This document shows positions 48,401 through 54,400 of a stretch of 64,000 nt of DNA, one piece after another (within the stretch, counting starts at the first letter, position 1; the number at the start of each line of letters is the position of its first letter). Source of the DNA: Ridgeia piscesae (taxonomy: Eukaryota; Annelida; Polychaeta; Sabellida; Siboglinidae); NCBI GenBank assembly GCA_025642075.2, contig JAODUO010000193.1, positions 1-64,000 on the forward strand. The letters are read 5' to 3'. The position numbers and the translations under genes are program-made. The notes under the pieces were generated by a model, which had not been told where the DNA came from, did no database searches, and worked only from the letters and a program-made list of their open reading frames with translations.

Positions 48401-51400
48401 TGTTGAAGTTCATCTATACGTCTCCTACCTTGAGCATGGATGCAGCACTCAGCTCCATGTACCGTGTCTTGCCCTCAATGTTCTCTTTCCATTTTGCCAG
48501 CCAATTCACCTAAACCAGAGTAAACCACGTCACAACCACATCACCGCAACAAGAGAGCAGAGTGACAGACACACACCAGTGGATGAATCTGTCCTCGCAA
48601 GCCAGGGATGGTAGATTACACCACCTCTAGCAGACTTCCTATGAAATGTCTGAAAATTTGCTGAATGACGCAGTTGCATATTTCCATCCGACTCCAGGTA
48701 ATACCTGTTCGACCATTCTTGTGAGTGGTTGAGGTAAGTTTTGACATTACAGAAGACGGTACAAATTCAGAACACTTAATATCGACCCACACCATATAGA
48801 ACAAGAAACATGGTGGAAGAACAAAAGAAACCAAGGTCTCCTTCATATAATATATAAGGTTGTGACATGTGTGGTACCTCTTTGGCCGAATGTCCTCATC
48901 TTGTTGTTATGAACAACTTCCTTCCACTGATGCCCTTTTGGTGGCACAGGAACCCTTGAACCCCTACAATGTCCTCATCTTGTTGTTATGAACAACTTCC
49001 TTCCACTGATGCCCTTTTGGTGGCACAGGAACCCTTGAACCTCTACAATGTGCTCACCTTGTTGTTATGAAAAATGCCTTCCACTGATGCCCTTTTGGTG
49101 GCACAGGAACCCTTGAACCTCTACAATGTCCTCACCTTGTTGTTATGAAAAATGCCTTCCACTGATGCCCTTTTGGTGGCACAGGAACCCTTGAACCCCT
49201 ACAATGTGCTCATCTTGTTGTTATGAACAACTTCCTTCCACTGATGTCCTTTTGGTGGCACAGGAACCCTTGAACCCCTACAATGTCCTCACCTTGTTGT
49301 TATGAACAACTTCCTTCCACTGACGCCCTTTTGGTGACACAGGAACCGTTGAACCCCTACAATGTGCTCACCTTGTTGTTATGAACAACTTCCTTCCACT
49401 GACATCCTTTTGGTGGCACAGGAACCCTTGAACCCCTACAATGTGCTCACCTTGTTGTTATGAACAACTTCCTTCCACTGACGTCCTTTTGGTGGCACAG
49501 GAACCCTTGAACCCCTACAATGTCCTCACCTTGTTGTTATGAACAACTTCCTTCCACTGACGTCCTTTTGGTGGCACAGGAACCCTTGAACCCCTACAAT
49601 GTCCTCACCTTGTTGTTATGAACAACTTCCTTCCACTGACGTCCTTTTGGTGGCACAGGAACCCTTGAACCCCTACAATGTCCTCACCTTGTTGTTATGA
49701 ACAACTTCCTTCCACTGACGTCCATTTGGTGGCACAGGAACCCTTGAACCCCTACAATGTCCTCACCTTGTTGTTATGAACAACTTCCTTCCACTGACGT
49801 CCTTTTGGTGGCACAGTAACCCTTGAACCCCTACAATGTCCTCACCTTGTTGTTATGAACAACTTCCTTCCACTGATGTCCTTTTGGTGGCACAGGAACC
49901 CTTGAACCCCTACAATGTGCTCACCTTGTTGTTATGAACAACTTCCTTCCACTGACGTCCTTTTGGTGGCACAGGAACCCTTGAACCCCTACAATGTCCT
50001 CACCTTGTTGTTATGAACAACTTCCTTCCACTGACGTCCTTTTGGTGGCACAGGAACCCTTGAACCCCTACAATGTCCTCACCTTGTTGTTATGAACAAC
50101 TTCCTTCCACTGATGTCCATTTGGTGGCACAGGAACCCTTGAACCCCTACAATGTCCTCACCTTGTTGTTATGAACAACTTCCTTCCACTGACGTCCTTT
50201 TGGTGGCACAGGAACCCTTGAACCCCTACAATGTCCTCACCTTGTTGTTATGAACAACTTCCTTCCACTGACGTCCTTTTGGTGGCACAGGAACCCTTGA
50301 ACCCCTACAATGTGCTCACCTTGTTGTTATGAACAACTTCCTTCCACTGACGTCCTTTTGGTGGCACAGGAACCCTTGAACCCCTACAATGTCCTCACCT
50401 TGTTGTTATGAACAACTTCCTTCCACTGACGTCCTTTTGGTGGCACAGGAACCCTTGAACCCCTACAATGTCCTCACCTTGTTGTTATGAACAACTTCCT
50501 TCCACTGACGTCCTTTTGGTGGCACAGGAACCCTTGAACCCCTACAATGTCCTCACCTTGTTGTTATGAAAAATGCCTTCCACTGATGCCCTTTTGGTGG
50601 CACAGGAACCCTTGAACCCCTACAATGTGCTCATCTTGTTGTTATGAACAACTTCCTTCCACTGATGTCCTTTTGGTGGCACAGGAACCCTTGAACCCCT
50701 ACAATGTCCTCACCTTGTTGTTATGAACAACTTCCTTCCACTGACGCCCTTTTGGTGACACAGGAACCGTTGAACCCCTACAATGTGCTCACCTTGTTGT
50801 TATGAACAACTTCCTTCCACTGACATCCTTTTGGTGGCACAGGAACCCTTGAACCCCTACAATGTGCTCACCTTGTTGTTATGAACAACTTCCTTCCACT
50901 GACGTCCTTTTGGTGGCACAGGAACCCTTGAACCCCTACAATGTCCTCACCTTGTTGTTATGAACAACTTCCTTCCACTGACGTCCTTTTGGTGGCACAG
51001 GAACCCTTGAACCCCTACAATGTCCTCACCTTGTTGTTATGAACAACTTCCTTCCACTGACGTCCTTTTGGTGGCACAGGAACCCTTGAACCCCTACAAT
51101 GTCCTCACCTTGTTGTTATGAACAACTTCCTTCCACTGACGTCCATTTGGTGGCACAGGAACCCTTGAACCCCTACAATGTCCTCACCTTGTTGTTATGA
51201 ACAACTTCCTTCCACTGACGTCCTTTTGGTGGCACAGTAACCCTTGAACCCCTACAATGTCCTCACCTTGTTGTTATGAACAACTTCCTTCCACTGATGT
51301 CCTTTTGGTGGCACAGGAACCCTTGAACCCCTACAATGTGCTCACCTTGTTGTTATGAACAACTTCCTTCCACTGACGTCCTTTTGGTGGCACAGGAACC

Positions 51401-54400
51401 CTTGAACCCCTACAATGTCCTCACCTTGTTGTTATGAACAAACTTCCTTCCAAATGAAAGTCCCTTTTGGTAGCACATGTGAACCCTTTGAACACTAAAT
51501 GTCCTCACCTTGTTGTTATGAACAACTTCCTTCCACTGACGTCCTTTTGGTGGCACAGGAACCCTTGAACCCTACAATGTCCTCACCTTGTTGTTATGAA
51601 CAACTTCCTTCCACTGACGTCCTTTTGGTGGCACAGGAACCCTTGAACCCCTACAATGTCCTCACCTTGTTGTTATGAACAACTTCCTTCCACTGACGTC
51701 CTTTTGGTGCACAGGAACCCTTGAACCCCTACAATGTCTCACCTTGTTGTTATGAACAACTTCCTTCCACTGACGTCCTTTTGGTGGCACAGGAACCCTT
51801 GAACCCCTACAATGTCTCACCTTGTTGTTATGAACAACTTCCTTCCACTGACGTCCTTTTGGTGACACAGGAACCCTTGAACCCCTACAATGTGCTCACC
51901 TTGTTGTTATGAACAACTTCCTTCCACTGACGTCCTTTTGGTGGCACAGGAACCCTTGAACCCCTACAATGTGCTCACCTTGTTGTTATGAACACTTCCT
52001 TCCACTGACGTCCTTTTGGTGACACAGGAACCCTTGAACCCCTACAATGTGCTCACCTTGTTGTTATGAACAACTTCCTTCCACTGACGTCCTTTTGGTG
52101 GCACAGGAACCCTTGAGCCCCTACAATGCAGATATACATCTCACTAGTCCTCTTGAAGTATTCATCCATTTTATATGCCACAAACCTTACACTGTCAGCA
52201 ACGTGAATGATACACTTGTATGGTAACAACATGAATTACACACCTGTATGGTAACAACATGAATTACACACCTGTATGGTAGCAACATAAATTATACACC
52301 TGTGTGGTAGCAACATGAATGAAACACCTGTATGGTAACAACATGAATTACACACCTGTATGGTAACAACATGAATTACACACCTGTATGGTAGCAACAT
52401 AAATTATACACCTGTGTGGTAGCAACATGAATGATAAACCTGTATGGTAGCAACATGAATGATACACCTGTGTGGTAGCAACATGAATTATACACCTGTG
52501 TGGTAGCAACATGAATGAAACACCTGTATGGTAGCAACATGAATGATACACATGTGTGGTAGCAACATGAATGATACACCTGTGTGGTAGCAACATGAAT
52601 GAAACACCTGTATGGTAGCAACATGAATGATACACCTGTGTGGTAGCAACATTAATGATACACTTGTATGGTAACAACATGAATTACACACCTGTGTGGT
52701 AGCAATATGAATGATACACCTGTGTGTTAGCAACATGAATGATACACCTGTGTGGTAGCAACATTAATGATACACCTGTGTGGTAGCAACATGAATGAAG
52801 CACCTGTATGGTAGCAACATGAATGATACACATGTGTGGTAGCAACATGAATGATACACATGTGTGGTAGCAACATGAATGATACACCCGTGTGGTAGCA
52901 ACATGAATGATACACTTGTATTGTAACAACATGAATTATACACCTGTGTGGTAGCAACATGAATGATACACCTGTGTGGTAGCAACATGAATGATACACA
53001 TGTGTGGTAGCAACATGAATGATACACCTGTATGGCAGCAACATGAATGATACACCTGCATGGTAGCAACATGAATGATACACCTGTGTGGTAGTAGCAT
53101 GAATGATACACTATACATGTGGCAGCAAAGAACTGTATGGAACTATACATATTTAAAAGACTTCCTAATTGACAGGCAAATTAAAAATCATTTAAGTCAT
53201 CAAATTATAAAATCTACACATCATAATTATTATACCCTTGCATTATGCATCTAGAAAATGCATGGCTTGAAATTTGCAATTGTTCATTAGTAAATAATAG
53301 ATGTATTAATTTGTTGTTCATTCACATAGCCTAAACAGAAATACTATTCAAGCGTGTTTAATAAAAAAAATGGAGATTTAATGAATGATTATCCTGTTGG
53401 ATTGTAATCACAAATATTTAATTAGACTTGTTTGTATGTTAAAGCATTAAAAACAAAATGTTAATACGAGATGTATATGGAACTCTGCCCCCCCCCTCAT
53501 ATACCAACATTATTCAAGGTTTCTGTCAAAATTTAAGCAAGCCAGATTTGGTATGTTTCGAAAGTTCTTCATTCAGTGACTACCGGTAACTGTACAGATA
53601 AGTGAACACTTGATTCTACTTGTTCATTAGGCAAGTAGACGATCCGACAAATGTAAAGTCCTAGTAAAACAATAATGTTATTTCACTTACTTGCTGCAAT
53701 TTATGGTCACATCTTCTGGTAATATTCGCTTTCTTAGCTTGCCCTTCTTTGGGTTGTCTCCAACACCTTGAAAAATCCCTGGTGGTGTTATACGGAACTT
53801 TTCTATCTTCTCAGTATGTCTATCTTCTCCGTACGACTTGATTGTAACAATGCCATGCATCTCCTCCTCCTCTTCTTGTTCTTTTTTCAGCAGCTAACAA
53901 ATCACAAAAACCCACGATTTTAGATTTTCTGTATCTTTAACTATTCAAGTAAAGCCCAACTAAAGACAATTATCACCATACAATGCTATATTGGCATTAC
54001 ATTTTCTTTTTTTAAATGTCTAGTAAATCTGCCTATCTTACAGAAGGGATTTTACAGTTAGTAGGTAACAATAGTCAAGCGAGCAATGTTAGCTTGGAGA
54101 ATGGCAGTGATGTATGGAAGCAACTAATGAGCAATGTTAGCATGGACACTGACAGTGATGTATGGAAGCAACTAATGAGCAATGTTAGCATAGAGACTGA
54201 TAGTGACGTATGGAAGCAACTAATGAGCAATGTTAGCATGAGACTGACAGTGACGTATGGAAGCAACTAATGAGCAATGTTAGCATGGAGACTGACAGTG
54301 ATGTATAGAAGCAACTAATGAGCAATGTTAGCATGGAGACTGACAGTGACGTATGGAAGCAAGTAATGAGCAATGTTAGCATGGAGACTGACAGTGACGT

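Follow-up and report, generated by a model that had tools for sequence, protein, structure and literature searches.

Tens of tandem copies of a whole exon and of a splice acceptor in a TOP1 gene of the tubeworm Ridgeia piscesae

When a coding exon is present in some 40 near-identical tandem copies, each with splice sites of its own, which copy is spliced into the mRNA? The question is raised by a minus-strand topoisomerase I (TOP1) gene of the siboglinid annelid Ridgeia piscesae, in a stretch of 64,000 nucleotides (positions 1 to 64,000 of contig JAODUO010000193.1, assembly GCA_025642075.2; hereafter, the window). A preliminary description of this DNA held that an essential gene here depends on the choice of exactly one copy out of dozens. 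On sequence grounds, we consider a different reading to be the probable one: the array would be a minisatellite of the type known from amphioxus as a “mirage”, situated in a diverged TOP1 paralogue, of which the first unit would be used through exon definition while the remaining units would be silent.

The gene and its exon array

The modelled exons of the gene join in frame through canonical splice sites. The arrays were delimited with Tandem Repeats Finder (TRF) and by reading of the units. In the order of transcription, the features are:

56152-56374, minus strand: E1, the first exon modelled
55393-55527, minus strand: E2
53691-53893, minus strand: E3, with INCSK at its end and a phase that fits E4
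48889-52128, minus strand: array of 41 units of 79 bp, each the 64-nt exon E4 plus a 15-nt spacer
52057-52120, minus strand: unit 1 of this array, 5′-most in the gene, with unique upstream context; most likely the copy of E4 that is used
48900-48963, minus strand: unit 41, 3′-most, adjoining unique intron; its donor is AT, not GT
48429-48509, minus strand: E5, encoding VNWLAKW and onwards
46710-46853, minus strand: E6
44829-46574, minus strand: array of 40 units of 44 bp, each an acceptor plus the first 24 nt of E7
44607-44852, minus strand: E7, whose start lies in the final 44-bp copy
43515-43629, minus strand: E8
42548-42666, minus strand: E9
38915-38973, minus strand: exon with the active-site tyrosine
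36307-36457, minus strand: last coding exon, with a TGA stop at its end

The N-terminal exons were not found in exon modelling, and of the linker that should lie between E9 and the tyrosine exon only a part was seen, by eye. In the partial product of E1-E9 (443 residues), the DNA-binding and catalytic domains of TOP1 (PF02919 and PF01028) score above cut-off, and human TOP1 chains are matched at 6e-152 (chain E). The gene has the active-site stretches LRVGNEK, KVFRTYN and CNHQR, and SKSYYIDPR in the tyrosine exon, in all of which there are residues that we take to have catalytic roles.

TRF reports a period of 79, 41.1 copies and 96% matches for the E4 array. A unit comprises the 64-nt exon followed, in most units, by the 15-nt spacer GTGAG(G/C)ACATTGTAG, which runs from donor to acceptor. 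The exon opens with the single base that finishes the K codon following INCSK, continues with 21 codons and leads in frame into VNWLAKW. E4 is a genuine exon: its neighbours join in frame, the product is TOP1, and the same 64-nt exon occurs once in the canonical paralogue described below. Thus, the preliminary description was right in taking the repeat for a TOP1 exon in tandem with a spacer and with fitting phases. It was also right that the unspliced spacer reads V-R-T-L-stop and that the frame is shifted by inclusion of two copies: two, three or four consecutive copies of E4 give a stop inside copy 2.

The units are not all intact. The exon part is 64 nt long in 34 of the 41 units and 63 nt in six, unit 9 being garbled. 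The consensus splice sites attributed to the unit are present in most copies: AG precedes the exon in 40 of the 40 scorable units (units having been located by the acceptor motif, with one mismatch allowed), and the donor dinucleotide is GT in 37 of 41 but AT in four (units 19, 37, 40 and 41). The peptide is intact in 24 of 41 (R or H being permitted at one position), and 20 of 41 pass on length, GT, AG and peptide together. The 34 full-length units fall into 18 with one and the same peptide and 16 that depart from it by one or two residues. The variant sites among units (six nonsynonymous and three synonymous, against 138 and 44 possible changes) are too few to judge selection. RNA folding was dropped as a basis for the E4 units, a three-unit stretch showing nothing unusual (z -0.18), as was a structural RNA or tRNA (ARAGORN, 0 genes; Rfam, 0 matches at the gathering score).

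Two side observations concern the surroundings of the exons. Fragments resembling a long interspersed nuclear element (LINE) reverse transcriptase can be recognized by eye on the plus strand within the gene (39849-40653). Upstream of the gene, 56502-60802 holds a tandem duplication in two aligned pieces (56502-58046 against 58565-60196, 84% identical; 58133-58362 against 60573-60802, 94% identical).

A second array and a second TOP1 gene

The E4 array is not unique: the preliminary description missed the 44-bp array in the same gene and the occurrence of such arrays at other exons of the genome. Each 44-bp unit joins the tail of intron 6 to the first 24 nt of E7; only the last copy continues into the exon, and in the other 39 of 40 copies a stop is reached within nine codons. 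The AG acceptor is present in 36 of the 40 copies, and GTGAGT follows 23 nt past the acceptor in 33 of them.

A second TOP1 gene lies at C80:617896-627177 of the same assembly (628 Mb in 4875 contigs, searched). Its model comprises twelve exons with canonical sites and reaches the tyrosine exon and the stop, but lacks the N terminus and one linker exon between E9 and E11. E4 is present there as a single copy, and the sizes of E4 (64), E5 (81), E6 (144), E8 (115) and E2 (135) are equal in the two genes. Its E1-E9 is 93% identical to TOP1 of the siboglinid annelid Lamellibrachia satsuma, with 81% of the query covered, and 72-79% identical to the other listed matches. With a canonical TOP1 that has a single E4, the proposed dependence of an essential gene on the array is not supported. 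An array-free second TOP1 carrying all expression had been named as the finding that would speak against that claim; the second gene agrees with this in part, being free of an E4 array, but has two acceptor arrays of its own, each including the true site: one at E5 (13 copies, all with AG) and one at E7 (six copies, five with AG). The E7 array units of both genes hold the same first 24 exonic nt.

As a separate observation, E5 of the canonical gene starts with GTGAGT directly after its AG (L024:1168-1605, which is C80:624068-624505), and many units of its array repeat TTGTAG/GTGAGT, such that the unit looks like a fused acceptor and donor.

The window gene is 63% identical to the canonical gene over 438 codons. 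Its branch in the tree is long (1.91 changes per column) and its placement unsure. The differences between the two genes at the three codon positions are 0.244, 0.210 and 0.470, and there is no stop codon in 443 codons of the window gene. As judged from these comparisons, the window gene is a faster-evolving, diverged TOP1 paralogue; it is under constraint, as stops are absent, differences are most numerous at third positions and the active-site stretches are kept.

Which copy is spliced

The E4 units differ in the sequence before their acceptors. Counted over the 17 nt at positions -20 to -4, unit 1 has nine pyrimidines, whereas the other 39 scored units have a mean of 5.3 and a maximum of six; the gene's other ten scored acceptors have 7-13 (12 at the tyrosine exon). 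In the gene region outside the arrays, 13% of AGs (n = 573) have five pyrimidines or fewer. Thus, unit 1 is alone among the 40 scored units in having the pyrimidine content usual for the acceptors of this gene, which makes a single used copy a simpler reading than the choice of one out of dozens that had been proposed. The donors of the array score highest among the gene's ten scored donors (by matrix scoring). At the 3′ end of the array, the donor is AT in units 40 and 41, and the copy beside the unique downstream intron is therefore not the expected choice of the spliceosome.

The flanks of the array are informative about its possible origin. Unit 1 is preceded by ATATCTG-CATT-GTAG, and the exon of unit 41 is followed by ATGAGGA-CATT-CGGCC; CATT therefore flanks the ancestral single exon on either side, and the span from CATT to CATT is 79 bp, which suggests tandem duplication based on microhomology. 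A short duplication between the two tetramers, of which the first lies within the acceptor region and the second closely follows the donor, would have created the 79-bp unit, and slippage or unequal exchange would then have enlarged and homogenised the array. By exon definition, the acceptor of unit 1 would pair with the strong donor of that unit, and the exon so defined would be joined to E5. From unit 2 to unit 41, the donor of the preceding unit occupies the place of the pyrimidine tract and, the 15-nt spacers being too short to splice, these units would lie silent within a long intron 4. In the 44-bp array, the last copy would be favoured by exon definition, as it alone has a full exon and a donor behind it; most other copies offer 23 nt between the acceptor and the donor-like GTGAGT. 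The amphioxus arrays, which are reported to leave splicing intact (PMC3087553, PMC3902484, as far as those accounts were drawn on), are counted in favour of this reading.

Several points weigh against it. The acceptor of unit 1 is itself at the weak end for the gene, with nine of 17 pyrimidines. In the 44-bp array the pyrimidine argument fails, as the count is 7-10 of 17 over the 40 copies and only seven at the true acceptor, and exon definition would there be the sole basis for the choice of copy. Assembly noise may be all that has broken units 2, 6, 8 and 9, in which case their decay is no evidence of disuse. No product of the window gene is present among 120 listed protein matches, of which the best is 58% identical. 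Finally, boundary repeats in human paralogues are reported to change splicing (PMC2812944, in the part of that paper used here), such that the silence of extra copies is not to be granted on general grounds.

The alternative closest to the preliminary description is that most intact units are equally usable, with one chosen through steric exclusion and pairing across the exon, while nonsense-mediated decay clears mis-inclusion; we regard this as unlikely. Because animal introns need more than 15 nt, neighbouring copies could not both be spliced; 20 of the 41 units pass on all four measures, and the donors are strong. Yet the internal acceptors are poor in pyrimidines, the three-unit stretch folds in no unusual way, and copies k and k+2, which are 94 nt apart, could be joined, leading to a stop. 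Mutually exclusive exon arrays, for example Dscam, likewise consist of tandem exon copies of which one is used, and the E4 array resembles them in that one copy could be used and the spacers are too short for neighbours to be spliced together. In contrast to such clusters, in which diverged exons give different isoforms, the E4 copies are near-identical and would yield little isoform diversity (18 of 34 encode one peptide and 16 of 34 differ at one or two residues). What could enforce a single choice here is the 15-nt spacers; the fold, of three units only, is unremarkable. A wider version, in which minisatellites multiply junctions and whole exons throughout the genome and the spliceosome sorts out tens of near-identical sites in each gene under one general rule, the E4 copies being interchangeable and made single by spacing, with exon identity a statistical matter instead of a fixed genomic location, seems to us rather doubtful.

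The array could also be mostly an effect of assembly, i.e., a small real array inflated by false internal duplication and unpolished reads, although we think this quite improbable. Two features of the array bear on it:

51425-51500, minus strand: garbled unit 9 (unit reading), near the edge of an exact internal duplication; probable assembly noise
50542-51441, minus strand: 900 bp that recur without a difference at 49121-50020, shifted by 1421 bp (exact-repeat comparison)

The duplicated stretch starts at garbled unit 9, so that the edge of an exact repeat meets a damaged unit. By hand count, six of units 1-9 (2, 4, 5, 6, 8 and 9) have indels in the exon or in the spacer after it that are absent from units 10-41; those later units have a single type of indel, common to units 20, 38 and 39. 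The duplication fits instability or misassembly, and the pattern could come from either a recent expansion or a seam in the assembly. The approximately 41-fold amplification described earlier agrees with the 41 units counted in this one assembly, but the number is soft and may be inflated. Against an artefact, about 23 units would be left between intact unique flanks even if the 900-bp duplication were false, and other exons of the genome bear similar arrays. The round sizes of some contigs of the assembly (70000, 470000, 522500 and 727500) may mean that they were cut at fixed steps.

That the window gene is a pseudogene and its array debris is very unlikely; the long branch and the presence of a canonical TOP1 would suit such a status, but 443 codons without a stop, the codon-position differences (0.24/0.21/0.47), and the kept active-site stretches and tyrosine argue against it. 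Least probable of all is a regulatory array, by which the dose of functional paralogue mRNA would be set by the frequency of extra-copy inclusion: the stop in copy 2 of multiple-copy products and the altered splicing reported for boundary repeats in human paralogues (PMC2812944) would agree with it, but arrays lie at exon edges at no more than the rate of random placement (see below), so a special role is unneeded.

Junction arrays in this genome and in other animals

How common such arrays are was assessed in 50 kinase-exon loci of this genome, comprising the 30 best PF00069 matches and 20 shorter ones. The sample is non-random: the 30 best are mostly long exons, and the 20 were hand-picked further down the listing with several skipped. 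As some loci share sequence (L027, L028, L031, L032 and L044; L034 and L068; L050 and L051), there are 44 independent groups. Arrays were counted with a TRF period of at least 12 and at least 2.5 copies, within 12 bp of the match. An array lies across an exon edge in six of the 50 loci (one of the 30 best-scoring and five of the 20 with short exons), each in a different group, and in all six the repeated junction (exon end plus intron end) is legible by eye, with acceptors repeated in L034, L055, L071 and L073 and donors in L069 and L072. Random placement of exons leads one to expect 8.5 of 50, 3.6 of 30 and 4.8 of 20, and an enrichment of arrays at exon edges is thus rejected; among the 30 best-scoring loci there is a tendency towards depletion (P 0.065). 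Tandem arrays cover approximately 10% of the sampled loci. Junction arrays are therefore frequent in the kinase sample, without being enriched at exon edges.

The closest known systems are the amphioxus mirages, described for Adh3, the globins BflGb6 and BflGb9, TnC and PGBD5, with units of 10-72 bp (Adh3) or about 150-160 bp (globins) (PMC3087553, PMC3902484). As far as those descriptions were drawn on, they have in common with the TOP1 arrays a minisatellite-like repeat across an exon-intron boundary, repeated splice signals and coding genes that tolerate them. Here too a tandem repeat spans the boundary and AG/GT signals are kept in many units (GT in 37 of 41 and AG in 40 of 40 scorable E4 units; AG in 36 of 40 in the 44-bp array). 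The differences are that the animal is an annelid, that several genes of one genome are affected and that the E4 unit is a whole exon with both splice sites, in about 40 copies as against six and three in two BflGb6 haplotypes. The name “mirage” outside amphioxus, and such arrays in siboglinids, were not seen in the open-access papers covered, mostly as titles and the openings of abstracts. Thus, the arrays are of a known kind; what is new is the annelid host, the high frequency, the tens of copies and a unit that swallows a whole exon.

Other systems are more distant, on the parts of the sources used. Human segmental duplications contain variable internal tandem repeats, some of them at exon-intron boundaries, with 27 intron modifications; the repeats average 30 bp and four copies, and they are reported to give rise to new introns or to alter splicing (PMC2812944). 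Recent human paralogues thus share boundary minisatellites with the TOP1 case, whereas the tubeworm arrays have tens of copies and one has a complete exon as its unit. In an earthworm, also an annelid with duplicated exons, exon 4 duplications of a metallothionein clone are reported to be missing from the transcript (PMC12783039); the part of that report used here does not describe them as a junction minisatellite. Intron gain by way of tandemly duplicated AG/GT sites (Rogers 1989, cited in PMC3087553) likewise involves a duplication that carries splice signals, but the TOP1 copies add to an existing exon, and only extra copies are seen. The intronic minisatellites linked to multiple splicing decisions in Caenorhabditis elegans are a different matter (PMC4039745, from the part used).

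These arrays extend mirages from amphioxus to an annelid and can be seen as natural splice-site competitions: 41 near-identical exons in one intron and 40 near-identical acceptors before another exon, to which the canonical TOP1 and kinase genes of this animal add more. Private variants, such as a synonymous base peculiar to unit 1, would tell which copy is used and would thereby test rules of exon definition, proximity and the pyrimidine tract. The kinase sample suggests that, where minisatellites are dense, exon edges are struck at about the random rate and that this is tolerated; to judge from the genomic sequence, the splicing machinery seems able to deal with near-identical signals by the dozen. 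Genes of this kind may be misread by gene annotation.

A further junction in the window, in another gene, adjoins an array (TRF and exon reading):

17525-18296, plus strand: donor of an ankyrin-repeat exon (17525), with a 28-bp array directly after it (17532-18296)

The ankyrin-repeat gene occupies 13000-26000 on the plus strand, with Pfam Ank matches in three of the four open reading frames tested, and resembles inversin. At the start of the contig (1-1233) there is an array of 21 units of 59 bp, for which ARAGORN and Rfam report nothing; by eye, its unit resembles part of a tRNA-like sequence. In all, tandem arrays cover 20% of the window.

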